The notes beneath the pieces were generated by a model. That model had not been told where the DNA came from. It worked only from the letters and a program-made list of their open reading frames with translations, and ran no database searches. A program made the translations under genes and the position numbers. Below are positions 6,865 to 62,558 of a stretch of 64,000 bases of DNA, in pieces. Location of the stretch: positions 6,450,001 to 6,514,000 of the forward strand of contig OX485803.1 in assembly GCA_950295325.1 (NCBI GenBank), read 5' to 3'. Positions within the stretch are counted from its first letter, which is position 1; every line of letters begins with the position of its first letter. The DNA comes from Polytrichum commune. Lineage: Eukaryota > Streptophyta > Polytrichopsida > Polytrichales > Polytrichaceae.

Positions 6865-9637
6865 ATGCAGTCAGTAGAATTAGGGTTAGGGGCTCCAGAC
6901 CAGGTTCTGGATACCTTGCCTGACACCCTGTGGGAGGAGATTTTAGCTCGGATACCCGACCTGAGCTCCTTGGCCTATACCTCCTGTGTTTGCAAGCGAT
7001 GGAGGCGCCTCACCTCTTCTCCCACTTTTTTGGCCCTCCATAGTCACAAACTCGAGGAACGCCACAGCTGGCTCTATGTGAATGGATTCCGTTACCGTAT
7101 CACAGATCTTCCACCACTGCCGGAGGATGAACACAATCATATCTCTTCTCCATCCTCTAGCTCCACACAGCTTCAATCTGATGAATCCATCAAGACGTCA
7201 GCAGCTAGTACCCTCACGTTCTCTCCCATGGAGACTGAATCGTGCGGGCCGGGAGGGGTGTTTTACGTGCTCGACTCGGAGCGGTCAAAGCTTTTGTACA
7301 GAATCGGTGAATCATCCAAGACTTATGTGGAGACTCCGGCACTGACGCATCCGAGGACCATACCCATCATCGGGGTTGTCAAGAGTACATCTAGAACAGG
7401 TGCAACTCAAACTCTCCCGTTTAAAATTTTAGTTGTTTTCATGTCATCCCTTCTAGAGTGATGCCTCTAATGGATTCATGATGATTCTTTCACAACGAGT
7501 AGTGTCGTAGTGGTCCAGCCAAGGCAGTGATCGGGGAGATTTTGGGGCATAATCAGTCGAGATCCTAGTGTTTGCAAGTCCAACCGGTTACATGTTGACA
7601 TCCTTCGGTTTTCCTATATTAATTTGCGGTATATTCCATAAATTCCTCTAAAGTGATCGGCAATCCTCCTGAAGTCTTGAACTTCAACCGGTTATTTCTC
7701 AAACTCAACCGGTTCATCTGAAACTAACTGTCGGCTCTCCCCGATCATTGAGCCAAGGGGTTTGGTGGACATGTATCTCCTGATTGGATATAAGGAGACA
7801 CATTATCACCTGCAATTGATAACCCAGCCATGGCTTGACCAAGTTACGTTTGGTAATGGACATGTGTCAGGATGTTGTTGGCCATAGTTGGCACCTAGTA
7901 CCTATGTAAGTTCAGAACATTCTTGAGTAACCTTTGTAGCCTCCCGGTGCAAATGAGGATAGAGTAGACAAACCCATTTTGGATTACCCGCCCCTCCAAA
8001 TCTTATTATATAGAGTCCCTAAAGTCATAAAATTCCACAAATGTAACTGTCATTTTCTAACATGATGGGAAAAGCCATGAAGAATTACACATGTAGCCTT
8101 TACATTAGGTGTGATGGAAAAGTAAGTTAAAAGGACACGGATTTGGGTTTATTGAAAAGTGCACTATTGTACTCAAGTTTTGATCTCCCAGTTATCGGAA
8201 CTAGGTCGACCTATGTTATGGATATGGGTTGGAAGAGAATCTTGCCTTCAAAGTCTTACAATAATTTCAAAACTTGGAAATAGATTGTGATTTTCTTGTT
8301 GTTAAACGTTGTGATTTAATTTCTAGACCTATGGAAAATCAACCCAATATCACACATGTACTACAACTATGCAAAATTACTTAAGTTATTGGAAATAGGT
8401 GTGTCTACTCTAGTTAGTAAGTTGCTCGGATTGGTTATTTATTGAATTTTTATAGATCTGGGAGAGGATTTCTTGTCAAAAGGCAGGGGGAAGAAAAAAT
8501 GAGGTGATGACAAATGAGAGCTCACCACTCAATCATGCTCAACATTCATGCTTGCAAATCAACGCCCTTGGCTGTTGAAACAATAACAGAAAGGGAGTGC
8601 CCTTACAAGGGCTCAAGAATGCTATAACGCTTATAAAGAGGGGGCCGCGAGGAATTTAGTGATACCATTTGTGTCTCATGGAGAATAGGTGTACACCTCA
8701 AACATTGTTGTTTTAAGATCAAGTAGAAGCAAATGTTGTAAAGCAGGGCTCACCATCCAGTCCCCCTAGGTATTTTTCTTTTTCACATTGAGGACTGAAG
8801 GTGTTAATTGAAATACTTCTAGCACAAATCAAACGAAACTCTACCAAAACATTGTTCCTTAAAAATGATAGTTTAGCAGCTCCAATTGAACCAGGTTGTT
8901 GATTAAATACGCTAACCTCTACTCCTTGGCGGTGCTGACTTATGTCAGACAGTTGCCACTCCGGCCACCACAAGTTGCTTTGCATTGGAGGCCTGCCCTG
9001 CGATGGCACCAAAGAATCCCTCCTGAAGCTTGAGATCTTCAGCTCAGACTCGAATTCGTGGGAAGAAGGTGAGGACCTCCCCGCCGAGTTTCAAGGCCTC
9101 GCAACTTTCCGGTCCGTCACCGCGGCGGTCCGTGGCCGGAAGATGTACGTGTTCCACATCTACTCGGGGATCATGGCCTCCTATGACGTGGACCGAAAGC
9201 GCTGGAGCGCGGTGACAACGATGCGTCCTGATGGCGCCCAATACTGTTATTTGGGTGTGCACAGTGGCGACCTCTTGTTGATTGGGGTGAGCTATGAGGA
9301 TGAAGCGTTTGTGTTCCGAGGCTGGCCAGTCGACGAGTCCACCATGGGTTACAACACGCGCCTCCTTCCGCCGCGGCAGGTCATGTGTCACTTCTCAACG
9401 TTGAAGCGCAGAGGCACTGGTTTTGAGCAGTTAAACGAAGTCTACCAAATTACAAATTGGAGCACTCGCGCGGATGCAGTCTTGTTGTGCCCGTCCCACC
9501 ACATGGGGGACTCACTGTCGCTGCCGAGCGCGCTTCAGTCGTGGACACTACGCTATTTCCTGAACATTGCAAAGTCCATGCCACGATCCACCGTGTCCGC
9601 CGGGGTCAAACTGTTCGATCACATTTTCCGGTTTTAA
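6865..9637 (+). CDS. F-box/kelch-repeat protein (gene A), two exons
   Basis: Predicted substrate adaptor of an SCF (Skp1-Cullin-F-box) E3 ubiquitin ligase. Exon 1 is 6865-7399 and exon 2 is 8949-9637. The intron of 1549 bp has GT at 7400 and AG at 8947-8948, phase 1, giving a protein of about 407 aa. The F-box is at residues 17-58 (LPDTLWEEILARIPDLSSL, then SCVCKRWR). A low-complexity linker follows. The kelch part begins at CIGGLPC (about residue 190), and a second blade contains MYVFHIYSG followed by KRW. The junction agrees with paralogue B (30642-32426), where the homologous CIGGLPC also starts just inside exon 2. The C-terminal 80 residues match B only weakly. Upstream are two tandem-repeat arrays; a decayed copy of the kelch exon lies 180 bp downstream. 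The substrate cannot be inferred. Confidence 0.85.
7521..7754 (-). repeat. ACCGGTT dispersed repeat (copy 2) in F-box gene A intron
   Basis: Inverted relative to 4545-4860 and 56705-56905. The ends carry an inverted TGATCGGGGAGA motif (near 7528 and 7745), so the repeat may be a small terminal-inverted-repeat element. It lies wholly inside the intron. Confidence 0.6.
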
Positions 9638-11130: not shown

Positions 11131-11429
11131 TAGAATTAGGGGATCGCTATTTCCACACCTTTTTTTGGCTAGATTCACACCTTTTTGCTGGTTCGGTTGG
11201 CGTTGCACTGAGGCGCTACATATAAGATTCTTCATGGTGCATCCGGACCGTTGATCCACCAAGGCCCATCCAAGGGCCTCAATGATCCTAGGTGGCGGTG
11301 GGGTGGGGGGCGGGGGTGGTGCTTGCCACCAAGGCGGGGTGGGGCCGTGGGCCTCATGTCCTTTTTGGGGAGGCCGGATTTAGGGTGGTGTCGGGCCTAG
11401 TGGCTAGGCGGGCCCAGTGGCTAGGCCTA

Positions 11430-11949
11430 CTTATTATATAACTTACTAAATAACTAGTTGGTTACCCTTACTCTACTTACTAAATAACTAGTTGGTTAGC
11501 CTTACTCTACTTACTAAATGACTAGTTGGTTACCCTTACTCTACTTACTAAATGACTAGTTGGTTACCCTTACTCTACTTACTAAATAACTAGTTAATTA
11601 GCCTTACTCTACTTACTAAATGACTAGTTGGTTACCCTTACTCTACTTACTAAATGACTAGTTGGTTACCCTTACTCTACTTACTAAATAACTAGTTAAT
11701 TAGCCTTACTCTACTTACTAAATGACTAGTTGGTTACCCTTACTCTACTTACTAAATGACTAGTTGGTTACCCTTACTCTACTTACTAAATAACTAGTTA
11801 ATTAGCCTTACTCTACTTACTAAATGACTAGTTGGTTACCCTTACTCTACTTACTAAATGACTAGTTGGTTACCCTTACTCTACTTACTAAATAACTAGT
11901 TAATTAGCCTTACTCTACTTACTAAATGACTAGTTGGTTACCCTTACTT
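11430..11949 (+). repeat. 34-bp satellite in the left arm of fold-back copy 1
   Basis: The unit is built on TTACTCTACTTACTAAATGA followed by CTAGTTGGTTACCC. A variant carries TAACTAGTTAATTAGCC. In the inner part the order is two standard units then one variant, a higher-order period of about 102 bp. The mirror-image array is at 12180-12690. Confidence 0.85.
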
Positions 11950-12179
11950 GGTATTTTGGTAGGCTATCATATTACAACCATTGCAAGGAAGGAGACTATC
12001 CACAATCATATGACATAGAATTTACAACATAATGGTAATGTCAATAAAGGCACTACATTTCCGGATGAAAATATTCGATTTGCTTGACAATAGGGATGAT
12101 ACATAGATTATGTAATGCTATATGATTGTGGATAGTCTCCTTCCTTGCAATGGTTGTAACATGATAGCCTACCAAAATA

Positions 12180-12690
12180 CCAAGTAAGGGTAACCAACTA
12201 GTCATTTAGTAAGTAGAGTAAGGCTAATTAACTAGTTATTTAGTAAGTAGAGTAAGGGTAACCAACTAGTCATTTAGTAAGTAGAGTAAGGGTAACCAAC
12301 TAGTCATTTAGTAAGTAGAGTAAGGCTAATTAACTAGTTATTTAGTAAGTAGAGTAAGGGTAACCAACTAGTCATTTAGTAAGTAGAGTAAGGGTAACCA
12401 ACTAGTCATTTAGTAAGTAGAGTAAGGCTAATTAACTAGTTATTTAGTAAGTAGAGTAAGGGTAACCAACTAGTCATTTAGTAAGTAGAGTAAGGGTAAC
12501 CAACTAGTCATTTAGTAAGTAGAGTAAGGCTAATTAACTAGTTATTTAGTAAGTAGAGTAAGGGTAACCAACTAGTCATTTAGTAAGTAGAGTAAGGGTA
12601 ACCAACTAGTCATTTAGTAAGTAGAGTAAGGCTAACCAACTAGTTATTTAGTAAGTAGAGTAAGGGTAACCAACTAGTTATATAATAAGT
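12180..12690 (-). repeat. 34-bp satellite in the right arm of fold-back copy 1
   Basis: Reverse-complement counterpart of the array at 11430-11949, with the same two-plus-one arrangement of unit variants. The mirrored order indicates that the whole arm, not single units, was copied. Confidence 0.85.
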
Positions 12691-13637
12691 AGGCCTAGCC
12701 ACTAGGCCCGACACTACCCTAAATCCGGCCTCCCCAAAAAAGACATGAGGCCCACGGCCCCACCCCGCCTTGGTGGCAAGCACCACCCCCGCCCCCCACC
12801 CCACCGCCACCTAGGATCATTGAGGCCCTTGGATGGGCCTTGGTGGATCAACGGTCCGGATGCACCATGAAGAATCTTATATGTAGCGCCTCAGTGCAAC
12901 GCCAACCGAACCAGCAAAAAGGTGTGAATCTAGCCAAAAAAGGTGTGGAAATAGCGATCCCCTAGAATTATATCTTATGGATGCTTGTCATTAAGTAGAT
13001 TCACCCTTAAAAAACGAGTGACATTTGGGTGAAGCATTGTCATTGAATATCATAAGAATGGAACATCTGATAGCAGTTGAATAATGTTATGTTTCTAGCC
13101 ATGATATTTCTTAAAGTGATGCAATTTGTTCTTTTCATGCCAACAAGACCTAGAGCAAAGCCCCAAATTTTGGGGTAAGTGCATGGCCCTTATGTGCTAC
13201 TTTTCTTAATTTGACACCAATTTTGAGTAATAAGGTAGAGGGTGCTAAAACTTTGACTTCGGGTGCTAAGCTATATAATAAAATTTCATTTTAAAATAAT
13301 TTCTTTGTGGCATTTGAAAAGGGATTCTAACTTTGAATTTCATATGTAAAAATTATAAGAGTACAAATTTTATTGGTAGATGGCTCAAAATCAACACAAG
13401 ACTATGATATTGAGGTGGAGGACATTCTCAAAAATCAATATTTATTTATAGGGGATTGCTATTTCCACACCTTTTTTGGCTAGATTCACACCTTTTTGCC
13501 GGTTCGGTTGCCGTGTCACTGAGGCGCTATAAATGAGATTCTTCATGGTGCATCCAGACCGTTGATCCACCAAGGCCCATCCAAGGGCCTCAATGATCCT
13601 AGGTGGCGGTGGGGTGGGGGGCGGGGGTGGTGCTTGC

Positions 13638-14743
13638 CAGGGCATAAAATTGACACCCTGGGGGTGTATTTTGCTTCCTAGAGTGTCCTAGGACACCCAA
13701 ATCTCAAACAGGGTGTCCCCGAGGACACCCAAAAATCCTACAAGGGTGTCCTTTTTACACCCAAAAAAAATTCAGGGTGTCCCCTGTACTTGTAGGGCCT
13801 ATCAGCGAATACCAAATTTGTGGCATAATTTTTGGACATTTCTAGAGGTGGTGAGATCCATTTTCAAGACTCTACAGGAGTGGTGCATTCACATATATTG
13901 CATTATGCACCATTGCCTCATGCAATTGAGTTTGGTGGTGATGGTACCCTCCATGGGTGCAAGGTGATTGCACAGGCCTATATGGTTAAGGTGATAGAAT
14001 CATTGCAGCAACGATTTCCTGATTTGAAGCTCTTCAATGCAACTAAGCTATTTAGCCCTGTTTGTTTTTCAACAGATTTGACACTTCTTCATCGAAATGC
14101 TCGTTTATGGCTTCAGAGTTTCATTGACCACTTCTGCACTAATGGAGGGAATTTTTTTGATGAGCGTGGTTTAAAATCAGAGCTTCGAGGTTTTTTGGAT
14201 ACACTTCATATTTCATGTGGTGGTCTTAAAATGCACCAAGCTTGGATGGTTTATTCTTCCAATTTGGACTATGTTGGAAGATATCCTCATATGACAAAGT
14301 TGTGGCAAGCTGTTCTTGTAATTCCTGCTAGTACAGCTTCTTGTGAGAGAGGATTTTCTACTCAAAATCATATTAAATCTACTTTACGGTGTAGTTTGGT
14401 ATTAGAGGCTTTGGAAGCACAAATGAGAGTTGCAATGGCAAAAATCCCCATAGAGGCCATTGACTTTGAACAAGTATGGGTAAAGTGGTGTGCTATGAAA
14501 GGCCACTGCTTGTAGGTTTGATTTGCATTGCAAGTTATGATATGCAGTGATTTTTTTGATTTTTAATTGAGATTTTGAAATGATATTATATATTTTTCAA
14601 AATTGTACCTATTTTGACAAAAAAAAAATTAAGAGAAATTTATGAGGACACCCAAAAATTGGAGCAGGGTGTCCTTGGGACACCCAAAATTTGGGACAGG
14701 GTATCCCCTGGAAATTTGGCTAGGGTGTCAAATTTATGGCCTG
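13638..14743 (+). mobile_element. hAT deletion derivative nested in fold-back copy 2
   Basis: The terminal inverted repeats are 22 bp with two mismatches: CAGGGCATAAAATTGACACC at the left and the complement of TGTCAAATTTATGGCCTG at the right. The perfect 8-bp duplication GTGCTTGC is at 13630-13637 and 14744-14751. The same target is intact at 11319-11326 in fold-back copy 1. Both subterminal regions carry many copies of AGGGTGTCC or GGACACCC, probably transposase-binding sites. Only the C-terminal part of a transposase remains, so the element is non-autonomous. Confidence 0.9.
13832..14515 (+). pseudogene. 5'-truncated hAT transposase (C-terminal dimerisation domain)
   Basis: An open frame of about 227 codons. 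From about residue 50 it reads as the end of a hAT transposase: LQQRFPDLKLFNATKLFSP, then PHMTKLWQAVLVIPASTASC, then ERGFSTQNHIKSTLRCSLVL, the conserved hAT dimerisation core. The zinc finger and the catalytic N-terminal two thirds are missing, and the first 50 residues look like sequence joined on by deletion. The frame is open to its stop, which suggests a recent insertion. The protein is not expected to be active. Confidence 0.8.
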
Positions 14744-15125
14744 GTGCTTGCCACCAAGGCGGGGTGGGGCCGAGGCCGGATTTAGGGTGGTGTCGGGCCT
14801 AGTGGCTAGGCGGGTCCAGTGGCTAGGCCTACTTATTATATAACTAGTTAGTTAGCCTTACTCTACTTACTAAATAACTAGTTGGTTAGCCTTACTCTAC
14901 TTACTAAATGACTAGTTGGTTACCCTTACTCTACTTACTAAGGTGAATCTAGTTTGTAGTGTGAATCTAGTTGGTAGAAGTTGGGGACATGAAAAATGAA
15001 CCAAATTAACAGCCACATACCTTAGAGTCTAGCCCTCTCCAATACTTTATCGCATCAAAACCTTGTCCCGGAATTGATGGGAACTCGTACCCGTTAATGT
15101 AGATGTGTCTTAAATGGTTAATTTT

Positions 15126-15340
15126 CAAACTAGCCTACTTATGGCATGATATGAAACAAGTACGTTAGTACGAGATGGTTAGCAAATCCAAATCAAAATT
15201 TAGGAGCTCATATGAATATCTTAGTCATTATCAAAGTGAAGATTATGGTGTCAATAATGATCATATAGGTGTCCATACCTAACTTCAAGACTTGCACATA
15301 TACCACTCAAATATACACGTCCAATTAAGAAGAGTGACCA
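15126..15340 (+). repeat. Dispersed repeat R1 (partial) inside the loop of fold-back copy 2
   Basis: Contains ACGAGATGGTTAGCAAATCC, GGAGCTCATATGAATATC and TTAGTCATTATCAAAGTGA in the order seen at 46246-46610, 57278-57650 and 60930-61600. Non-coding. Here it retains the uninterrupted site that is filled by a MITE at 61064. Confidence 0.6.
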
Positions 15341-15749
15341 ATTAGTAAGTAGAGTAAGGGTAACCAACTAGTCATTTAGTAAGTAGAGTAAGGCTAACCA
15401 ACTAGTTATTTAGTAAGTAGAGTAAGGCTAACCAACTAGTTATATAATAAGTAGGCCTAGCCACTGGGCCCGCCTAGCCACTAGGCCCGACACTACCCTA
15501 AATCCGGCCTCCCCAAAAAAGACATGAGGCCCACGGCCCCACCCCGCCTTGGTGGCAAGCACCACCCCCGCCCCCCACCCCACCGCCACCTAGGATCATT
15601 GAGGCCCTTGGATGGGCCTTGGTGGATCAACGGTCCGGATGCACCATGAAGAATCTCATATATAGCGCCTCAGTGACACGGCAACCGAACCGGCAAAAAG
15701 GTGTGAATCTAGCCAAAAAAGGTGTGGAAATAGCAATCCCCTATTTATA

Positions 15750-30560: not shown

Positions 30561-30641
30561 CTAAGACTTGAGCTAGGGGTTTAAGGGTTGAACAGGAGCG
30601 AGGATCTGAGTGGTAAATTGGTGCAATATATAATAATAACA

Positions 30642-32426
30642 ATGGCGACAGAAACGAACTTGAGCGAGGAATTGATGGAGGAGATCTTCACTCAACTGCC
30701 ACTGCAATCTTTGGGGCGAGCTTCCTGTGTGTGCAAGCAGTGGCGGTCGCTCACCACCTCGCCGGCCTTCCTGGCCCTCCATAGCCAGAAACACGACCAA
30801 CAGTGCTGGCTTTACGTCAACGGATTCAAATACAAAGTAGTCACAGGACCTCCACCGGTTCCAAGTTCTTCAGATTCTTCTTTCTCTGAAGATCAACTGC
30901 AGGACCTCCACCATCTGATCTCCTCCCCTCCCGGGTGTGATCAATCTCGGCCAGCCTTATGGGGTCCCGGAGGGATCTGTTATTGTATCGCAGGGTCTTC
31001 AAACTCTTCGGAAGGTTCTTCACATTCTAACAGAATTGTGTACAAGACAGGGATTTTGGAGAAGGAGTGGGTACAGACTCCGGAGCTCAAGCACAAGGCT
31101 TGCACTTTACCCATCGTTGCCATTCTCAAGAATCACCAAACAACCAGCACTCACCAGGTACTAATGCTTGTTTTTCTTTCATATATCAATCTTAACTTTG
31201 TTACAAGCTTTGATGGGTCTTGAATCCTTTCATTTTTCCAGCTAGCCCACTTCTCCGACTCCTCCTAGGATATGAAACACATGAGTAGTGCAAGATGGTA
31301 GGGTGAGTTTCCATGTAGGCCACTTGACTACATGATTCTAGATAATAGTGGGTCAGAGGTGTTCACATGTAGTTAAGCTCATATATTGTGAAAATTTTAA
31401 TCATTAACAAAGTGAAGTTTATTGTTCTCTTCAAATGGTCATATAGGTCCCCTCAATTATGTTGGCAATTATGTTAGCACGGTTAATTTTGTGAAGTTGT
31501 GAATATGGGTACCAAATCATGAAATTGTGGACACCATATATAGTGTGAAATTGGTTGAAAGTTCAACTTAAATTGGTTGTCTATATAGTGAACTTGGTAC
31601 ATGATGCCGATGAAACTGGTAGAACCTTTTGCTAAATTGGTTTGGAAAATCATGAAATTGAGCTTGCACTTCTGTGATTTCAACTTATCAAAGGAGTATT
31701 GTACAGGTCATTTGCATCGGCGGGCTACCTTGCAACAATGAAGGAATGAAATCGGCGGAGTCGTCCACTAGTAGCCTCAAAGTCGAAATCTACAGCCCGG
31801 AGACTGGAATGTGGGAGGATTGCGAAGACATGCCGGAAGAATTCAAGGGTTTGGCGACCGTGAGAGATGTGACTGTTGCCCTGCACAAGCAAAAACTCTA
31901 CGCGTTTCACAACCACTCCGGCATGGTGGCCTCCTTCGACACGGGCAGCAAGCGGTGGAGCAAGGTTAAAACATTACGGCCGCCGGGCGAGGGGGCGCAA
32001 TATGGCTACTTAGTGGTGGAGAATGGGGAACTCCTTCTCATTGGAGTGACCTACGAGGACAATCGATTTGCTTTCAAGGCATGGAGAGTCGATGAGACGT
32101 CCATGGAGTGCATCGGAACACCGCAACCAGTAATGTGTCATTTCGTGGAACCAACCTCCAGGAAGTCGAAAACATCGAAAATGAAGTCCAACGTGGTTAC
32201 CACCACCACCACTACCACCACCACCCCAATCATCAACGACGATGATCTAAATCTTTGTAAGAAGAATGTTCACCACGGTGTGGACGACAACAATTGCGAT
32301 CAAAGTGACCGTGGTACACAAATTGCATCAATATGGCCACGCCTTCACCTAGAGGCAAATCTCTTCATCACGGTTGGGTCTCGCATTTACAAATTCGCAA
32401 GTCTCCTTCGCCAATGGGTTGTTTGA
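30642..32426 (+). CDS. F-box/kelch-repeat protein (gene B), two exons
   Basis: Predicted SCF ubiquitin-ligase adaptor, paralogue of gene A (6865-9637). Exon 1 is 30642-31157 and exon 2 is 31707-32426. The intron of 549 bp has CAG|GTACTA and TTGTACAG|GT junctions, phase 0, giving about 411 aa. I chose the ATG at 30642 over an in-frame ATG at 30588 because it gives the same spacing to the F-box as in gene A. The F-box is at residues 7-48 (LSEELMEEIFTQLPLQSLG, then SCVCKQWR). Kelch-like blades follow from residue 173 (VICIGGLPC, then LYAFHNHSGMVASFDTGSKRW). A threonine run and an acidic, polar tail (NDDDLNL region) precede a C-terminus ending RQWVV. The intron holds part of a dispersed repeat. 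The substrate is unknown. Confidence 0.87.
31250..31470 (+). repeat. Dispersed repeat R1 (partial) in F-box gene B intron
   Basis: Carries CACTTCTCC..CTCCTAGGATATGAAAC, AGATGGTAGGG and CAAATGGTCATATAGGTCCCC in the family order. It is fully intronic. Confidence 0.5.
31480..31690 (+). repeat. 200-bp repeat shared by F-box gene B intron and 36780-36980
   Basis: The segment with GAAATTGAGCTTGCACTT, CTAAATTGGTTTGGAAAATC and TCTATATAGTGAACTTGGTA recurs inverted at about 36780-36980. It ends within 20 bp of the splice acceptor of exon 2, so the branch-point region of this gene probably derives from repeat DNA. Confidence 0.65.
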
Positions 32427-42561: not shown

Positions 42562-43330
42562 TTATAGTGTAGATCCCAAGAGACTATTCGGGAATAATCT
42601 TGGGATTTGTAAGCCCACATGACAACCCGCATTATCTTAACAATGTTATGAAAGTGGCAGGGCGATGACCATTATCACCACCACATCTTCCATTGTATAT
42701 AGATAATGTGAGGTGAAGAATTGGGATCATGAAATTCTTACTAAAGATATTAGGGTTTGAATCCTAGACCTTCTCAAACTCAAAGTCATGTTAAGTAAGG
42801 TGACCATCTTGGAAATGCCTCCCCTTGATCAATGAAATGAAAAGTGCAAAAAGGCAAGAGTGTCAAGAGTGAAAGGCCTATCTCGAGTAAGGACCACCTT
42901 CAATGTGGTCAACCGAAATCCACTTACGTATCCAAAAAATACAAACACCAAAATGACATGGGTTTAGTAGAGATTGGACTACATGCACATAATTTGTTTA
43001 GTCATTCTAGACTCAATAGTCACACATAAGTGTGTGTATTAGGGGGGGGGGGAGGTATATGATTATTTATCAAGAAAGCTAATCTTTATTGCAAAGAACA
43101 TGAAGAAGATCTTCATATGAAATCCAAAAATTATGAGAAAATGACTACAAACACAATTCGGAATTGCAACACATCTTGCACTAAATGTGAGTTTTGTATC
43201 TTTTGAGAAGTGGGTACTAAGCTAAAAGTGTTTGTTTAAGGGCCGCTTACCTTACATGAAAACCTACTGGACCGGACAAGTTCCAAGCACCTTAAAAAAC
43301 TTTGAGAATCACATATGGGAATTAGGTGGG
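42562..43330. other. Intergenic stretch, nothing recognised
   Basis: Contains a short poly-G run near 43045. Only short open frames occur, none with family resemblance. Confidence 0.4.
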
Positions 43331-45031: not shown

Positions 45032-48000
45032 ATGTCGTACCAAGATGAGCAGAGCGAGGACTACCTGTTCAAGGTGGTGCTCATCGGGGACTCGGCGGTG
45101 GGGAAGTCCAATTTGCTGTCGCGATACGCGCGCAACGAGTTCAACAACAACTCCAAGGCCACCATTGGAGTGGAGTTCCAGACGCAGAGCATGGAGATCG
45201 AGGGCAAGGAGGTGAAGGCGCAGATCTGGGACACAGCAGGGCAGGAGCGCTTTCGGGCCGTTACGTCCGCCTACTACCGCGGTGCTGTTGGGGCGCTCAT
45301 CGTCTACGACATTAGTCGCCGGCAAACTTTCGAGAATGTCAACCGCTGGCTCGATGAACTCAAAGGTAACAACACACACACAAGCAGACTCGCTCGCTCG
45401 CTCGCTCACTCACTCACTCACTCACTCACTCACTCACTCACTCACGGCGTTTTGGTTTTTGGGGCTTGCGGGTTCAGAGCATAGTTCAGACTTTCGAATG
45501 TAAGTAATGTCTTTGCCTCGCTAATATGTAGCTCGTTACTGAATTGAACAATGGATGAATTTGTACTCATTTCGGGAAAGAATGTAGGTAGGTAGGATGC
45601 AAGGAAGGAGGTTTGTCTCGTGCAAGGTGGTTTGGTCGGTGAGCTGGGAACCTAAACTTTTGGGTCCTGGTTGCAAGATTTATGAGCACATAAGAATGTA
45701 GCAAGAGTGAGGATGATTTTGGGCTTGTGAGGCTAATGTTGGTGAGGTGGAGGGTCAAAGTCTTTGTTCCTGGTTGCCTGATGATGCACATGCAAGGTTA
45801 ATAGGAAGATACATAAGAATGTGGGAAGATTGAGGATGATTTCGAAGCTTTGGAAAGTACTGTCTCGGCCTCGGGAAATTATAGTTGGTTACTTAATTGA
45901 GCAATGGATAAATTTGTAGTCGCTCCGGCGAGCAATGTAGGTGGGATGCAAGTTGTCTGCGAGGTAAGGTAGAGTTAGTGAGCTGAGAACCCAAAGTTGT
46001 GGTTCCTGGTTGCCAGATGATGCACATGCAAGATTTATGGGCAGATGTATAAGAATGTAGGACGAGAGAAGATGGGTTTAGAACAGAAACGTGTTGTTCT
46101 TTATCAAATTAGGCATTTGATAGATTTGTAGTCACTTCGGGGAACAATGCAGGTAGGATGCAATGTAGGAAGTTTGTCTCGTGCAAGTTGGGTTGGGTTG
46201 TTTGCAAGTTAAGGTAGACAACCCTTAAATGATTACTTTTTTCCGACTATCCCACTTCTCCTAGGATCTGAATCATTTGAGTTAGTATGAGATGGTTAGC
46301 AAATCCAAGTGGAATCCGTAGCCACTTTCCTCAAAATTATGGAGCTCATATGGATATCTTATTCATTATCAAAGTGAAGATTCTTGTGCTCATTAAATTG
46401 TCCTATAGGTCCCCCTCCAATTATGTTGACTATGGAGTCTAGAATGGTTATCATATTTTGAGGACGTAGTCCAATCTCTTTTAAACACATGTCTTTTTGG
46501 TATCTGTTCTCGGAGCCACACCTACCTAACCACAAACCACTGAAGTACAGGTGTCCTAATAAGAGAATCAACCGAATGAGGATGGTCTACCTTAGAGCTG
46601 GTGAGCTGGGAACCCAAACTTTTGGTTAGTGGTTGCTTGACGCATATGCAATATTCATGGACAGATATAAGAATGTGGGTATACAGACAGGCCCACCGTA
46701 GCTAGGAACGTGGCAAGGTTGACAGAAGCAGGTTCAGGTTAGGTTTTTGCAGCTCGACTTAGACCAAGAAGGATATTGCTTTTCTTTGAGTATCACCATG
46801 GGCCCAAAAAAACAAGGATTCACACCTTACTCCATAAGCTCAATAACAATCTTATAGAAGAATTACCTCATAGACAGTAGAGTGTGTCGTCTGCTGATGC
46901 AAATTCTTACCACCTTGTGGATTAGAATGTTAACCATGGAATTATCTCGGATGTCTTTGAATGTGCAGTAACGAGCAGTCTTACTGCGTCAATTTTATGA
47001 ATTGGATACAGATATTCCAATGGACTTTTGAGGCATCAAAGTCCTTGAAATTTGTATAATCTTTGCTTATAGGATAGTTTAATTATCTCAATTTGATATG
47101 GTCAGTGTGGTGATATCGAGAGTGAAATATGTGCAGTATCAAAATGTAGGCTAGAGTTTGAAATGTCTTAACACATTCGGATACTTTGTGTATCGAAAGA
47201 ATATGGATTCTGAGTACACTTTGCCAGGTTCTAGGCAGCAAGGCTCCTTGCAAAAAATTCAATCTAGTTCTACAGGCTTAAGTGGCTTTGGAATCTGGGT
47301 GGTAATATAAATGTCTTCCTTACGGCCCTGTAGTAGAGCTCCTATGTGATTCTTACTTCAGCACACTGATTATAGTAAATATCGTGGGCCATACTATTGG
47401 GCTTATGTCCACACAAAAAACACTCTGTGTGGGTGCACACTATTTACCAACCCACAGGCTTTAACATCAGACGTCCATTTTGTAGGTTATAATATTTCTA
47501 TTGGATTGAAAGTAGTGTGCATTTGAAAGGCATCCAACGTAGGGAAAGGAGGTGGGTATATCATGCGGGCATGACAAGTGGAACTAGAATTACACATTAT
47601 TTTCATGCATCATAGTGTATATTGTAGGCCAAACTTTAGGGTTGCTTGGAGGAAGGGTAGGGTTTACATTACGGTTTGGGTCCAAGAAACTTGGGGTCCA
47701 AAACAACCCCTACCAGACATTGCTTCTGGAGTCAAGATTGGTTTCTTGAACTAGGAGTGTTTTCTTGGGTAGGGATTGCCAAAATATGATGGGAAATTGA
47801 TCCTTAGTTAGGGCCACTTCACTTTCTCACACCTTGGACTCTGACCCTCCTTGGGCCCAAAAGTTTGCTCTTGGCCAATGGGATTGCTTGATGTTGGAGT
47901 TTCTCTGGTCTTGGACCATAGTTTAAACCCACAATAAGTCACGCTATATATCTGCCCACACTGTTTACCATAATCAACCTGCTGTTGTTTTTATCATGAT

Positions 48001-49309: not shown

Positions 49310-49690
49310 TATGTGGGTGTTACTTGATCCGTTTTTCATGTTCTTCAACTTTTACTGATTAGATTTACACAACAATACTTGTGTTCAATTAGCAAATCTA
49401 CAATGAAAAAATCTGTAAAAATTGGATTGGAAATTAAACCTCCCCTGATTGAGTTATGGTTATTGGAAGTTCATGTTTGTCGATTTCGTAATTGGATACA
49501 TAGATCCTTGCAATTGTGTTCACTATTGAGTGTAGAGTAGGTATGAATATTTGAAGACATACTCCAATCTCTTTTAAACATTTGTCTTTATGATGTTTGC
49601 TAGTTGATCCTCACTAAACCACATACCAGTCAAATCTAGGGGTTTGATTAAGAAAATGAGCCACTTAAGACCCATCTACCTTAGGTCTAA
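49310..49690 (+). repeat. Dispersed repeat R1 (partial)
   Basis: Carries GACATACTCCAATCTCTTTT, AACATTTGTCTTTATG and AACCACATACCAGTCAAAT in the family order. Non-coding. Confidence 0.5.
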
Positions 49691-54900: not shown

Positions 54901-57900
54901 TACGCAAAAGTTATCACAATTCAAATCGAAGATTTTTTTATTTGATTTTTCTTTCTTTCAATTTTCTTCATCTCAAGTATCATGCATGTCTCCTAGTTTT
55001 GTTAATTATTGAACCCACAACAATTAATAGTTCTGAGCATATAGTTCAACTTCATTATATCATATGTCTTTTTGGTGTCCGTTTATAACTATGAGCCTGG
55101 TTCTAGAAAATCATTAACTACAACAAATATAGGTGTACTATTAAGATGAGTGACCACACAAGGCCCACGTATCTTACGAGGTGTACTGAATAATGCGCAC
55201 AAGTTGAAACCAATGCCAACATATGAATTTGCGATACAATCTAAGCATCTATAAGTGATATGCCCACAATCACTCAAACTTAACGAGTGTTCAAGTACAC
55301 CATAAAAACATCTTCATTGTTTCACAATTTAATGCGGAAGCACTTCATTTTGTCATTTCTCGAGGTCGGGGCAATGTCCTCAAATCCCACAATGCCTCAC
55401 CTCAATGCATACGTCCAAGCATGACAAGTATCAATACAATACATTGATTGTTTTTGCCTTCTATGGAAGATGGTAACATGCATTCCTTCTAGATATGACA
55501 TGTTTAGTGCACTCACATCAAGTATTCTTGAACCCAAAAAAAAAAACTTATAGTGAGTTGTCCATGGCGTGTCTAAGGTGAAAACAACCTCGTATGGAAC
55601 AATTTAAATTTTTGGCATTTGTAGAGGTTAGACAAAGGAAGAAAAAACTGCAATCTCACATGAGGATCATAAGAGTTGAGGGTGTTATTTTTTGGAAACC
55701 ATGATGAATATATTATGAATTTATGAAGAGAGAGTAACAAGTGCCATGTGAATATTTCTTTTGAATATGTACCTATAAGTTAGAATCCATCAACGGTCAT
55801 GATTCACGGTTCACGGTTCACGGTAGGCTCAGTCCCCTGACCTTATTTGTGAACAAATATTACCATGTACAGTTACGGTACACCGATATATGCAATCAGG
55901 TCGCCCCATGCTGAATAATCAACATTCCACATTATTTTGAACATTCATTACCGCAATGACAACAAAACACATCATTTTTTCTACCGTGGTTGTTGTAGGG
56001 ATGAATAAACAACGTTAAGTTTTTGTAAATTGTGGTTTTGACCTAAACCTAATTTGCATAGGTAAGGAGGCAACCTAGTTGCACATAATATGATAGGTGT
56101 TAGATGTGCTGATATATTCAATGCATGAAATAAATAAATGGCAGGGACCGAGCTTTAAAAAAGGTTGCATTGCCACCCATTCAAGCAATTCCCAAGTCAA
56201 CTACCACCCGGGAACGCCTCCGCAATATTTTAAGGTTGGCCCCCAATTTCTGATTTCGTGATCACCTCACAATTAATGAAGCCTCGTATTTCAAATCAAT
56301 GAACAAAGAGACCGGACCGCTACACTAACTATGATATTTAGTGTGACCAATTCTAGTGATTATCTTGCTCAACGCCAATTGCAAACCACGGTGTAGTGTG
56401 TCACCAACACTAAATGTTAACCCAACATTATTTGTCATTCCTTTTTTTTGGGGGGGGGGGTATAGATTTACGGTGTTGCAATTATTGTCACTTACCAAGT
56501 GATTTTGCATCCCAATTTCAGTCATCCATGACAATATTTCATCACAAGTTGCCGAGAAGAGAAGGTAGGGGTTTGGCCAATGGATGAACTCATCCATCAT
56601 CCGTGACAATATTTGTAGACTTATATATATGAAGTGTCATCCGAAAAGTCACCATAGTGACGTTAAATACCATGTGACACTAAATATCATATTTGGTGTA
56701 GTTACAGATGGACCGGTTGAGTTTGGGAAATAACCGGTTGAAGTTCAAGACTTCAGGAAATTTATTGATCATTTTAGAGGAATCTATGGAATATACCTCA
56801 AATTCATAAAGAAAAACCTAAAGATCGCAACATGTAACCAGTTGGACTTGAAAACACTAGGATCGGATTGTGACCGATTATGCCCAAAAGAACTCTTGGA
56901 CATTGTTTTAATTGAAATCCACAATGGTAGGCATACCTAAAACCAACACTATGTATCGTTGTCATACATTTGAAGTCTTTAAATGTATGATTGTGATACA
57001 TAGTGCTCAAGATTTTCTCTTTCAGAGTTGGTTTTGGGTACAAGGCAAAGGGTGCAAAAATTGTCACTGTAATCGTTCCGCACATCTAGACTATTATTAA
57101 GTTGATAAAACTGTAAAGGATTCTCGTTAGCAAATGAAAGAGGATTCCAAATTCCAATGCACGAAAGTATGTCTTCTTTGAATGTAATATGCAAAAGTTA
57201 TAGAGGTTCAAAGGTTTATTCGTAGAGTATCCTAAATCAATAGGGGAGCTTGATGCTAAATGGTCAAGAAAGAACTAGCCCACTTCTCCTAGGACATGGA
57301 ACACACAATTACTACGAGATGGTTAGCGAATCTAGATTCTAGATTGAGGTCGTAGCCACTGTCCTCACACTTTTCAGAGCTCATATGATGTCACTTATTA
57401 CCAAAGTAAAGATTCTTGTGCTCATTAAATGGTCTTACCCCCTCCCCCACCCCATTATGTGAACTATTGAACCTAGAACGGTCATCATATTTTGGGCAGG
57501 TAATCCAATCTCTTTTGAACACATATCTTTCTGGTATCCATTCTCTTGAAGCCACACCTAAACCACATACCACTCAAAACGAAATGTCCGATTAAGATAA
57601 GTGATTGAATTAGCCACATCTATCTAACAAAGGACCACATATCATTGCCACTAACAAAGTAGAATTAAGATGTTTAAACCTATTACATTGGATGCGTGTG
57701 GAATGCATATTTACAGTGGGCATTACCTGTTGGGAGATCTTGAGTATGACCTTCAAGAGGAGATCATTGACGCATTTCAGGATGTGCGCGTTGTTGCTGG
57801 CACCGAATTCATCAAACAGGGCGAAGTCGCTGATAATTTCTACATCATTGTGAGTGTTTATTAATCAAGCATGAGTATGAAAAACCCCCGAAATTCCGCG

Positions 57901-60900: not shown

Positions 60901-62558
60901 GGCCAATGTAAGCGGGTGTTAAATGGTCACTTTAAGCTCTACACCCACTTCTACAAATAGGTTGTCAAAACACGCAATTTAGTTAGTGTGAGATGATTGC
61001 CAATTTCAAATTTTGTCCATAGTCATTCTCCTCATAGTCTTTGAAGCTCATATGAATGTCTTAAGGTAGGGGTGGCTATTTCCGTCCAAATTTCAGATGT
61101 GCCTAGTTGGGATGCTGAAACTATTTTTTTATAAATTTTGAGCGCTCCGCAAAGCTGGTGCAAGAGCAACTATGAAAAAAATCAAAAATTTCCAGCATGT
61201 TTATGATTTCCTATAAATTTTTAAAGAAAACCTTGTAGAGTGACCAACACTCGCACATAGGGTAGGTGGTATATCCACAGGGTGGATTTCTAAAACCGAC
61301 CGCTGGCAGCGCTGTGAACGGTAAAAGCACCTAGATAGGTGCTTCTGACATAGGGGTCGACTTTAGGACCCACACGGAAATTGCCACCCCTACCTTAGTC
61401 ATTGTCAAAGTGAGGATTCTTGTGGATATTAAGTGGCCATATAAGTGCCTGCAAATCATGTTATTATCAAGCTTGGAATTGTTATCAAATTTTGAGCATG
61501 TAATCCAATCTTTTCTAAACACGTGTCTTATTGGTGTATGTTCTTACATCCACACATAACCACACAACTCTCAAATAGTTATTTGATTAAAAAAAGTGAC
61601 CATGCAAGACCCGGTACTAAGTTACTATGATCAACTCAAAGTGGGTTCTATGTGTTTTTGGAAGCCACTTTAGAGGTAGTGGAAAAACGTTCTTGAGTAC
61701 CGAGTTACGTTCTTTTCCCTCTCACTTGTAGCTAGTAGAGTTCCACACCACCTTTATCATGTGGGTTGCAAAAATTTACTAAGGTAGCTCAACCTAACCC
61801 CCAACACCGAATCTATGACCACCCGAATGATTGGAGGGTTCCAATTAAACACGCTGCAAATCTAGGGCGTCCAAGGATCTCTCATTTAAGAAAACTCTCA
61901 TACATCAAAAAGATCATTATGAAATGCAACATTCTAAATTGAAGCCGCTCCAGTCATTTGGGTGATCATAGGTTTGGTGATAATGTTGAGTTGAGCTACA
62001 TCATCATCATTTTCATATGGACTTTGAAATGCTCAAACACCAACTACTTTCTCTTATTACAAAAATTTTTGTTTTAGAAAAGCAACAAGAACTTTGACTT
62101 TGTTTTTTTACCCGCAATCTCCACCATATGATATGAATAACACTTTTAACAATTGAAGAGCAAGATTGCAATAGCTAGGATATGGCCACACTAAACATCC
62201 AATTTAGTGTGGCATTAAAATGTGATTTCTTTCCAAGTTCTTTGTAGCGGTGTAGGTGATTTAAAGCACGTTGTGAACAAATCAAGGAGCCACGTGTCAC
62301 TTGTCTATTGATCGAACCCTTTTTCAAAAAATCCATGGTTCAAGTGGCTTATTAACGTTGTGGCTGAGCTTTATAAGATGATACTCGTTGTTCAATTCTT
62401 CACTATTTGATTAGAAGTGTGGCTTATAGGTGCTACGGGAGACCCCGGCTTTTAAAAAGTTACATACTCGAGAGATTATCCAATTGGCAAATAACTGCAC
62501 CATCACCAAGTTCAAAAGAGGGCAAAACATTTTGAAAGCAGGCTCTACCATGGACAAG
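51826..62558 (+). CDS. Cyclic-nucleotide-binding protein, PKG/PKA-regulatory-like, multi-exon and partial
   Basis: Exons joined by consistent phases are 51826-51911, 52331-52489, 53496-53689, 54644-54733, 57717-57849, 60662-60850 and 62430-62558. The order is: a helical region, a proline- and serine-rich acidic linker, a basic RRRDRIS segment resembling a kinase pseudosubstrate or autophosphorylation site, then cyclic-nucleotide-binding domain A (AGTEFIKQGEVADNFYII, then GESLGELALMYDTKRNVTV, the phosphate-binding-cassette pattern) and the start of domain B (KKLHTREIIQLANN, then FKRGQNILKAG). Tandem domains after a basic inhibitor segment are the plan of PKG and of PKA regulatory subunits. The rest of domain B and any kinase domain lie beyond the last exon. 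About 10-15 residues of domain A (the SG.F.V strand between FYII and GTDMP) are not accounted for; a short exon between 57850 and 60661 is probably missed. The plant PP2C-cNMP-kinase fusion is an alternative, but no PP2C is visible upstream. Confidence 0.72.
52331..52489 (+). CDS. cNMP-binding gene exon: helical region
   Basis: Acceptor GTCTTTGCAG, donor GAAAGG|GTATAA. All 53 codons are open in phase 0. The sequence around FNVMLSEVDHLFENFNSQQI and LLKQSVNAYLEGG looks helical and may mediate dimerisation or docking. It is too short for most gene finders but has clean splice sites and matching phases on both sides. Confidence 0.65.
52650..53150 (+). repeat. Dispersed repeat R6 (copy 2) in cNMP-binding gene intron
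   Basis: Shares AAAGTGGATCTAGGAACCAT, ACCCATTGTGGTCATAG, GGTCATGCCCCTC and CACAGTGTGCCACAA blocks with 24100-24740 and 59220-59560. Confidence 0.5.
53496..53689 (+). CDS. cNMP-binding gene exon: proline/serine-rich acidic linker
   Basis: Acceptor CTTGGTGCAG. It reads INDDQEDLQKDLELVLDPP, then serine and proline runs. I chose donor GACAG|GTCACA (53690) because its phase 2 joins the next exon in frame. The later donor CAACAA|GTATTG (53700) would not. Codon use is visibly richer in GC than the surrounding intron DNA. Confidence 0.65.
53813..54510. repeat. Inverted-end repeat R4 (copy 1), with internal extra sequence
   Basis: CATGTTTTGGTAGAG, CACTTTTGACATTTAATAATG and CCTTGCCATGAAATTCAT match 60205-60605. 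The right part (AAATGTCAAAAGTGGAGCGA, ACCAAAACAAGAGATTT) is the inverted counterpart of the left. About 300 bp near 54110-54410 are absent from the other copy. A minus-strand frame of 149 codons across it is a by-product of the repeat. Confidence 0.55.
54644..54733 (+). CDS. cNMP-binding gene exon: basic pseudosubstrate-like segment
   Basis: Acceptor TGGATGCAG, donor ATAAG|GTGCGC. It reads GLMKAARKWSDTWKQNVVSA then LNTRRRDRI, and the split codon at the 3' join gives serine, making RRRDRIS. A cluster of arginines just before a serine and ahead of domain A is where PKG and PKA regulatory subunits place their inhibitor or autophosphorylation site; the functional role here is inferred. Confidence 0.6.
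54740..56315. other. Intron DNA of the cNMP-binding gene, no separate gene
   Basis: Includes a decayed R1 fragment near 55040-55150 and a TA-repeat at 54773-54786. A tandem CACGGTT triplet array occurs at 55803-55823. Confidence 0.45.
56320..56701. repeat. Intact MITE of the ACACTAAAT family (382 bp)
   Basis: The ends CTACACTAACTATGATATTT and the complement of CTACACCAAATATGATATTT pair over about 28 bp. It is the reverse complement of the copy at 3065-3815. A poly-G stretch sits at about 56451-56460. The target duplication is unclear (TA is possible). It lies in an intron of the cNMP-binding gene. Confidence 0.75.
56705..56905 (+). repeat. ACCGGTT dispersed repeat (copy 3)
   Basis: Abuts the preceding MITE. 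It shares CCGGTTGAAGTTCAAGACTT, GATCATTTTAGAGG and AAAGAAAAACC with 4545-4860. Confidence 0.6.
57278..57650 (+). repeat. Dispersed repeat R1 (near-complete)
   Basis: GCCCACTTCTCCTAGGACAT, ACGAGATGGTTAGCGAATC, AGAGCTCATATGATGTC, AAGATTCTTGTGCTCATTAA and AATCTCTTTTGAACACATAT all occur in the same order as at 46246-46610. It ends about 70 bp before the cNMP-binding exon at 57717. Confidence 0.6.
57717..57849 (+). CDS. cNMP-binding gene exon: first half of cyclic-nucleotide-binding domain A
   Basis: Acceptor ATATTTACAG, donor ATCATT|GTGAGT. It reads LLGDLEYDLQEEIIDAFQDV, then AGTEFIKQGEVADNFYII. This is the helix-plus-beta-roll start of a cNMP-binding domain, with the conserved pattern F/L..L......ID.F....V..G...I.QG...DNFY.I. 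Confidence 0.8.
57850..60200. other. Intron DNA of the cNMP-binding gene; a short coding exon may be hidden here
   Basis: Holds repeat R6 (copy 3) at 59220-59560. Otherwise unique AT-rich sequence. The missing residues of domain A imply an unseen exon of some 30-45 bases with a length divisible by three. Confidence 0.4.
60205..60605. repeat. Inverted-end repeat R4 (copy 2)
   Basis: AAACTCATGCTTTGGTAGGG at the left and its complement (ACCTAAAGCATGAGTTTTG) at the right pair over some 60 bp with CCCACTTTTGGCAT inside. It ends about 60 bp before the coding exon at 60662. Confidence 0.65.
60662..60850 (+). CDS. cNMP-binding gene exon: phosphate-binding cassette of domain A
   Basis: Acceptor AACTTATAG, donor GCTCAG|GTCTCT, 63 codons in phase 0. 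GESLGELALMYDTKRNVTV holds the family signature FGELALMYN.PR.ATV with the essential glutamate and arginine-type position (KRN in place of PRA). LLWAVNRAEFKSIL matches the conserved LWALDR..F. The usual arginine that contacts the cyclic phosphate appears as R in KRN; an alignment should confirm which residue takes that role. Confidence 0.85.
60930..61600 (+). repeat. Dispersed repeat R1 interrupted by a MITE
   Basis: Family blocks ACACCCACTTCTACAAATAG, GTGAGATGATTGCCAATT, AGCTCATATGAATGTCTTA are followed, after the 331-bp element at 61064-61394, by TTAGTCATTGTCAAAGTGAG and AATCTTTTCTAAACACGTGT. Confidence 0.65.
61064..61394. mobile_element. 331-bp MITE, TSD TTA, inserted into repeat R1
   Basis: The ends GGTAGGGGTGGCTATTTCCG and the complement of GGTAGGGGTGGCAATTTCCG differ at one base. 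TTA is at 61061-61063 and 61395-61397. The empty site TCTTAGTCATT is seen in another R1 copy near 15220. A 3-bp TTA duplication suggests PIF/Harbinger. Confidence 0.85.
62430..62558 (+). CDS. cNMP-binding gene exon: start of cyclic-nucleotide-binding domain B
   Basis: Acceptor TGGCTTATAG, donor GACAAG|GTCAAT, 43 codons in phase 0. It reads VLRETPAFKKLHTREIIQLA, then CTITKFKRGQNILKAGS. The next exon may start near 62805 (frame reading MYIIDEHYQY), which would fit the FYII strand of domain B, but the join is not clean and I leave it unassigned. Confidence 0.75.

Follow-up and report, generated by a model that had tools for sequence, protein, structure and literature searches.

Among the fold-back systems compared here, the described family that comes closest, in its tips and its architecture, to the two elements (copies 1 and 2) found in the analysed window, i.e., 64,000 nucleotides of Polytrichum commune DNA (C1:6450001-6514000), is MuTAnT of Medicago truncatula. 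In those parts of the cited papers on which this and the following comparisons draw, MuTAnT is described as 218 non-autonomous copies, mostly 200-300 bp long and mostly inserted in (TA)n microsatellites, with a 9-nt target duplication called typical for Mutator-like elements (MULEs) and a 4.9-kb putative autonomous element encoding a Jittery-like transposase (PMC4486113). The tips of the P. commune family resemble those of MuTAnT (GGGGTTTGCTA vs. GGGGATTGCTA): compared by eye with the MuTAnT terminal mask GGGGTTTGCTAGAACA (the family has GGGGATTGCTATTTCC), the tip form with T, found in copy 2, agrees at 10 of the first 11 and at 11 of 16 bases, and the form with C, found in copy 1, at 9 of 11 (PMC4486113). 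Both families consist of short fold-back elements with modular long terminal repeats, AT-rich insertion sites and many non-autonomous copies. The P. commune copies, however, are longer (mostly 0.7-2.4 kb) and have only a candidate autonomous element, and the 34-bp array that fills their arms is not part of the MuTAnT description consulted (PMC4486113). The initial annotation had not recognised the family; given these likenesses, it resembles a described type, that of fold-back MULEs such as MuTAnT.

Similar architectures are described in other hosts. The Tm1 Mutator/Foldback elements of root-knot nematodes have variable-length composite terminal repeats with short tandem units, and non-autonomous groups beside copies with a putative transposase; unlike the P. 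commune family, they have units of 13-15 bp, asymmetric 7-bp tips and no clear target consensus, and their duplications are 8-10 bp, most commonly 9 (PMC3169594). Tetris of Drosophila virilis, likened here by description and not by sequence, is likewise non-autonomous, with an outer flanking domain, a tandem array and an inner domain in each arm, a varying array number and duplications of 8-9 bp in complete copies; its units are, in contrast, about 220 bp long, its host is an animal, and its satellite arrays are shown outside the element as well (PMC4079207). Fold-back arms filled with tandem units are thus already known from Tm1 and Tetris. Galileo shares long, internally repetitive arms and, in its F group, a repeat number unequal between arms, but belongs to the P superfamily and has 7-bp duplications (PMC3573991). 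Jittery of maize and FARE1 of Arabidopsis, also compared by description, have long terminal repeats and are classed as MULEs (PMC4486113). In a text search of the literature neither the T-form 16-base tip nor the T-form 11-mer occurred, and the C-form 11-mer was found only in two papers with unrelated titles; as far as searched, the family is new by sequence and ordinary in kind.

The two copies have the following layout (positions in the window).
11131..11138, no strand: 8-bp target duplication to the left of copy 1, TAGAATTA
11139..12962, no strand: copy 1, entire fold-back element, 1824 bp
11139..11440, + strand: copy 1 left arm outer domain, with terminus GGGGATCGCTATTTCC, a CACACCTTTTT pair about 21 bp apart and a G-rich block
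11441..11948, + strand: array in the left arm of copy 1, fifteen 34-bp units in the order dabbcbbcbbcbbcb
11949..12182, no strand: copy 1 palindrome centre, with 98 nt between the arms (12017-12114)
12183..12692, - strand: copy 1 right array, 15 units, mirroring the order of the left array
12693..12962, - strand: copy 1 right arm outer domain
12963..12970, no strand: 8-bp target duplication to the right of copy 1, TAGAATTA
13443..13450, no strand: 8-bp target duplication to the left of copy 2, TATTTATA
13451..15741, no strand: copy 2, entire fold-back element, 2291 bp with a nested insertion
14829..14941, + strand: array in the left arm of copy 2, 3.3 of the 34-bp units
14942..15341, no strand: copy 2 centre, including a piece of an old dispersed repeat
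15342..15454, - strand: copy 2 right array, 3.3 units
15455..15741, - strand: copy 2 right arm outer domain
15742..15749, no strand: 8-bp target duplication to the right of copy 2, TATTTATA

The two copies represent separate insertions, with an 8-bp duplication apiece, of one real, many-copy, non-autonomous fold-back DNA transposon family. In agreement with the initial annotation, they have the same ends and different duplications (TAGAATTA around copy 1, TATTTATA around copy 2), lie as close together as it had noted (488 bases measured), and carry in every arm a G-rich block and a 34-bp array, of about 15 units each in copy 1 and 3.3 units each in copy 2; the two-plus-one pattern it had described for copy 1 is seen, mirrored, in both arms (d a bbc bbc bbc bbc b). 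That the two copies are just 488 bp apart could suggest inverted local duplications or satellite fragments that have never transposed. This explanation, to which we give next to no weight, is refuted by the target duplications, as those of the two copies differ and many dispersed copies have their own, so that the earlier reading of both as insertions and not as a local duplication holds.

The genome search (408 Mb in 64 contigs) yielded 226 matches to the 16-base end motif, 111 and 115 by strand, compared to none for the reversed motif. The matches listed fall on seven long contigs. Listed ends that are preceded by TA and have a variable base other than C are incomplete beyond C5:26.16 Mb, and the loci read are a subset of the copies implied by the 226 ends. 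In a first set of 44 copies with fixed ends, the 8-bp flanks were identical in 37 of 44 true pairs vs. 13 of 1892 mismatched pairs; six of the remaining pairs have one mismatch, and one has a 7-bp match alone. The longest exact duplication in this set is 8 bp in 36 copies, 7 bp in one and 12 bp, in a TA run, in another, with none in six.

A larger set comprises 83 family loci, of which two with one arm only (L048 and L050) were dropped before counting; the remaining 81 include 67 paired and 14 unpaired copies. An exact 8-bp duplication flanks 52 of the paired copies, 11 have one mismatch (at most one, therefore, in 63 of 67), and four have more (L054, L060, L065 and L078; damaged tips are visible in L054 and L060). 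Where several ends were possible in this set, the pair with the fewest mismatches was chosen, a choice that works in favour of the claim and that does not affect the first set. The sizes of paired copies range from 219 bp to 22.6 kb, 62 of 67 being shorter than 3 kb. These dispersed copies with target duplications are what a fold-back DNA transposon is expected to leave, and what the initial annotation had named as confirming a family, many copies with their own 8-bp duplications and variable unit numbers, is thereby seen.

The targets follow an AT-rich palindrome, TAnATnTA. Among the 52 exact duplications, T is found at position 1 in 41, A at position 2 in 39, A at position 4 in 37, T at position 5 in 34, T at position 7 in 35, and A at position 8 in 42. 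At least five of these six positions match in 24 of 52 sites, whereas 500 shuffles gave 4.0 such sites on average and never more than 12, although this test is not independent, as the pattern was derived from 37 of the same sites. The A+T content of exact duplications of the first set is 93%, vs. 67% in the flanks (34 of these loci).

The duplication length, 8 bp with at most one mismatch in the pairs just counted, is a hallmark of hAT transposons, and mobilisation of the family by a hAT transposase is consistent also with the abundance of hAT genes in this genome (150 matches scored of 1060 candidates), with a hAT relic nested in copy 2 and with a hAT-like gene inside the 22.6-kb copy. hAT elements have the target pattern nTnnnnAn and CAGGG/TAGGG ends. 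This target pattern is found in only 5 of the 52 exact sites, below the 11.1 expected from shuffled letters, and the family ends are GGGGAT and not of the hAT type. Moreover, a comparison by eye placed none of the 150 listed hAT matches between two paired family ends of the list; the closest match (C3:17296936-17297169) is about 0.6 kb outside a family end, with the proviso that two hAT stretches inside family copies are absent from these 150 matches. On balance we consider a hAT driver improbable. The relic itself, which interrupts the left-arm G-rich block of copy 2, has the CAGGG-type ends that the family lacks.
13630-13637 and 14744-14751: 8-bp duplication of the hAT relic, GTGCTTGC
13638..14743, + strand: hAT relic (1.1 kb), ends CAGGGCATAAA and CAGGCCATAAA
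13832..14515, + strand: open frame in the relic, 227 aa, with a hAT C-terminal dimerisation domain (PF05699, 31.9 bits, cut-off 21.4)
The initial annotation had denied both copies coding capacity, which does not hold to the letter for copy 2; this 227-codon frame is, however, a foreign one and no part of the family. The relic also has subterminal GGGTGTCC repeats.

Each arm of the family consists of a tip, an outer arm of about 300 bp with the G-rich block, and 0-15 units of 34 bp; these long inverted repeats with internal tandem units form much of the element, and both unit number and centre vary among copies. The arms of copy 1 align with three mismatches and 30 gap columns over 873 columns. 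Arrays were parsed in 44 copies, and units were read in both arms in 37 of them, seven being left out with the array unread in at least one arm (the left array of copy 2 was missed because of the nested hAT relic). The unit order is identical between arms in just two of the 37, copy 1 (15 and 15 units) and L026 (5 and 5 units), so mirrored arrays such as that of copy 1 are exceptional in the family.

The outer arms (about 170 bases) diverge on average by 2.2% within a copy and by 4.5% between permuted arms, and 0 of 2000 permutations reached so low a value. In 34 of 44 copies, however, the opposite arm of the same copy is less similar than at least one other copy. The arms thus share ancestry within a copy or a subfamily, and their divergence leaves homogenisation at each jump unproven. 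We had considered that arms are made identical at every transposition, and dropped this idea in view of near-identical outer arms with unequal arrays. For copy 1, however, the simplest account is that one arm was copied onto the other, as a 15-unit order is hard to obtain from two independent expansions. Locus L006, where one arm opens with the copy-1 order (dabbcbbc) and the other differs (daeb), fits such copying, its resemblance to copy 1 being too close for proof.

The centre of copy 1 is matched in 13 of the 67 paired copies and that of copy 2 in 42 (copy 2 included), with four copies matching both and 16 neither; the 22.6-kb pair was counted among the latter, though the copy-1 centre is present at both its ends. 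The copy-2 centre has five matches in the window outside the two copies (E-value 0.01), whereas five block-shuffled windows gave no match. The best matching place, 46151-46700, recurs at 67-79% identity. A piece of an old dispersed repeat is therefore built into the centre of copy 2 and of other family members. In the window, this repeat is found at 46151-46700 and, with 67-78% identity to that copy, at 57274-57600, 61391-61558, 42941-43263, 49511-49657 and 31376-31464.

The 22.6-kb copy (C4:25982832-26005438; loci L074, L091, L092, L090 and L075) has family arms at both ends and an exact duplication, AAAATGTA. Its ends form an inverted match of 470 bp at 97.7%, 457 bp at 89.7% and 142 bp at 99.3% identity, so that the terminal repeats measure about 1 kb; on the right they are split by some 885 bp with a short direct repeat on either side. 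Inside, a MULE frame of 404 aa (26000237-26001448) has a PF10551 match of 80.9 bits (cut-off 27.6) and is followed by a frame of 229 aa (26002950-26003636), whose stop codon comes to within about 20 bp of the right terminal repeat, at its inner edge. As a further transposon tip would hardly fit into this space, we regard a complete nested MULE as unlikely, while a truncated passenger is possible. Given also the likeness of the tips to those of MuTAnT, we favour, with a probability of roughly 0.65, the reading that the non-autonomous fold-backs are mobilised by a MULE transposase, the 22.6-kb element being the likely parent type.

Several observations weigh against a MULE driver. MULE target duplications of 8-11 bp are reported, and the 8-bp duplication of this family is inside that range and atypical; as the typical length of 9 bp is not seen, we file the family as a fold-back family and not as a proven MULE. 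MuTAnT, too, duplicates 9 nt, compared to 8 bp here (PMC4486113). The window and 88 loci, among which is the left end of this same 22.6-kb element, contain no piece of the candidate MULE gene, and other listed copies that reach the shared inner edge have no 3' end of this gene there, the neighbouring sequence being of the copy-2 type, an array or other. The junction could also be secondary, as the edge sequence is a piece of the old dispersed repeat; we had considered the shared centre to be simply the 3' tail of the MULE gene, and this is weakened as the sequence belongs to a repeat dispersed at several places of the window. The 22.6-kb element is a composite, with a hAT-like gene (recognised by eye through an adjacent frame, with zf-C17orf113 exceeding its cut-off and DUF4371 falling just short) and a DUF4218 gene, which we take to be CACTA-like. 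MULE-like genes are common in this genome, with at least 154 and at least 106 matches to two proteins that are MULE-like by eye; given this, and the nested hAT-like and CACTA-like genes, the MULE gene could be a truncated passenger. Finally, the candidate gene has no Pfam match, SWIM included, in the 229-aa frame (212 aa scanned) and FAR1 only below the cut-off (20.0 vs. 28.1), and includes a stop-containing interval of 1.5 kb, presumed without proof to be an intron.

If the MULE gene is indeed a truncated passenger, the family might be driven by a different superfamily that makes duplications of 8 bp (P, Merlin, KDZ/Zisupton or one not yet described), an explanation that we regard as rather unlikely, though a stronger contender than hAT. 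P elements have 8-bp duplications and a palindromic target, as observed here, and the absence of the candidate gene from the other loci agrees with this possibility. For Merlin-type transposases (PF12762), no match was found in the genome at an E-value of 0.01, in a search whose control was positive in 1 of 14 genomes; weak matches can escape at this threshold. KDZ/Zisupton (PF18758) also had no match in the genome, but neither had the controls. In addition, such a driver leaves the terminal similarity to MuTAnT unexplained.

Under MULE mobilisation, the elements would move by cut-and-paste, in trans, through a transposase recognising the GGGGAT(C/T)GCTATTTCC ends. The likely parent type would be the 22.6-kb element, with the same ends, terminal repeats and MULE gene, now broken up by nested transposons. 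The fold-backs may have arisen by loss of the interior between long terminal repeats, after which the arrays would grow or shrink one arm at a time via slippage or unequal exchange; in copy 1, one arm would have been copied onto the other, probably via a hairpin, shortly before or at insertion. A further-reaching proposal, that the duplication length has changed from 9 to exactly 8 bp in a lineage of MULEs that targets the palindrome TAnATnTA, and that the fold-backs derived from this lineage can copy a whole satellite array from arm to arm, as in copy 1, is tentative. The family adds a well-sampled fold-back system whose target rule is clear and whose arm arrays vary; if driven by MULEs, it would be a natural case for studying what sets the duplication length (8 vs. 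9) in this superfamily, and copy 1, a case for how inverted arms stay identical while the satellite grows.

Other candidates for an autonomous member were rejected. To find a driver, unpaired and long copies were examined: 21 loci gave 149 frames, ten of these frames were scanned against Pfam, and a second batch of partnerless ends was read for frames of at least 110 codons only. Foreign transposons are present in three of the five paired copies longer than 3 kb. The first, element A (C1:55536335-55549089), has a truncated MULE-like gene with SWIM below the cut-off and an Ulp1-type gene (PF02902 above the cut-off), and the stretch with these genes recurs in two 9.9-kb loci without family arms (L042 and L043). 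The second, element B (C3:14021629-14033884), contains an unrelated insertion whose inverted ends resemble GTGAGCGGTGAGC, and a gene that is MULE-like by eye with no Pfam match; two loci related to it have no family arms (L040 and L041). The third, L044 (8.2 kb), contains a nested Harbinger-type pair, with DDE_Tnp_4 above and Myb-like just below the cut-off. L045 (3.0 kb) has no frame above 117 codons. Also set aside were L062, retroelement-like by eye with no Pfam match, and L052, MULE-like by eye with SWIM below the cut-off. The partnerless end at C1:2131149 is near a DUF7869 gene and has no second end within 11.9 kb.

A large two-frame DUF7869 gene (PF25273, 140.7 bits), by eye possibly a transposase, is seen at L070:6844-9100 with L050, and a relative, 58-65% identical, is present in L041. 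In the window, 6865-9637 and 30588-32426 hold two F-box and Kelch frame pairs, alike in order and strand, possibly an old gene duplication.

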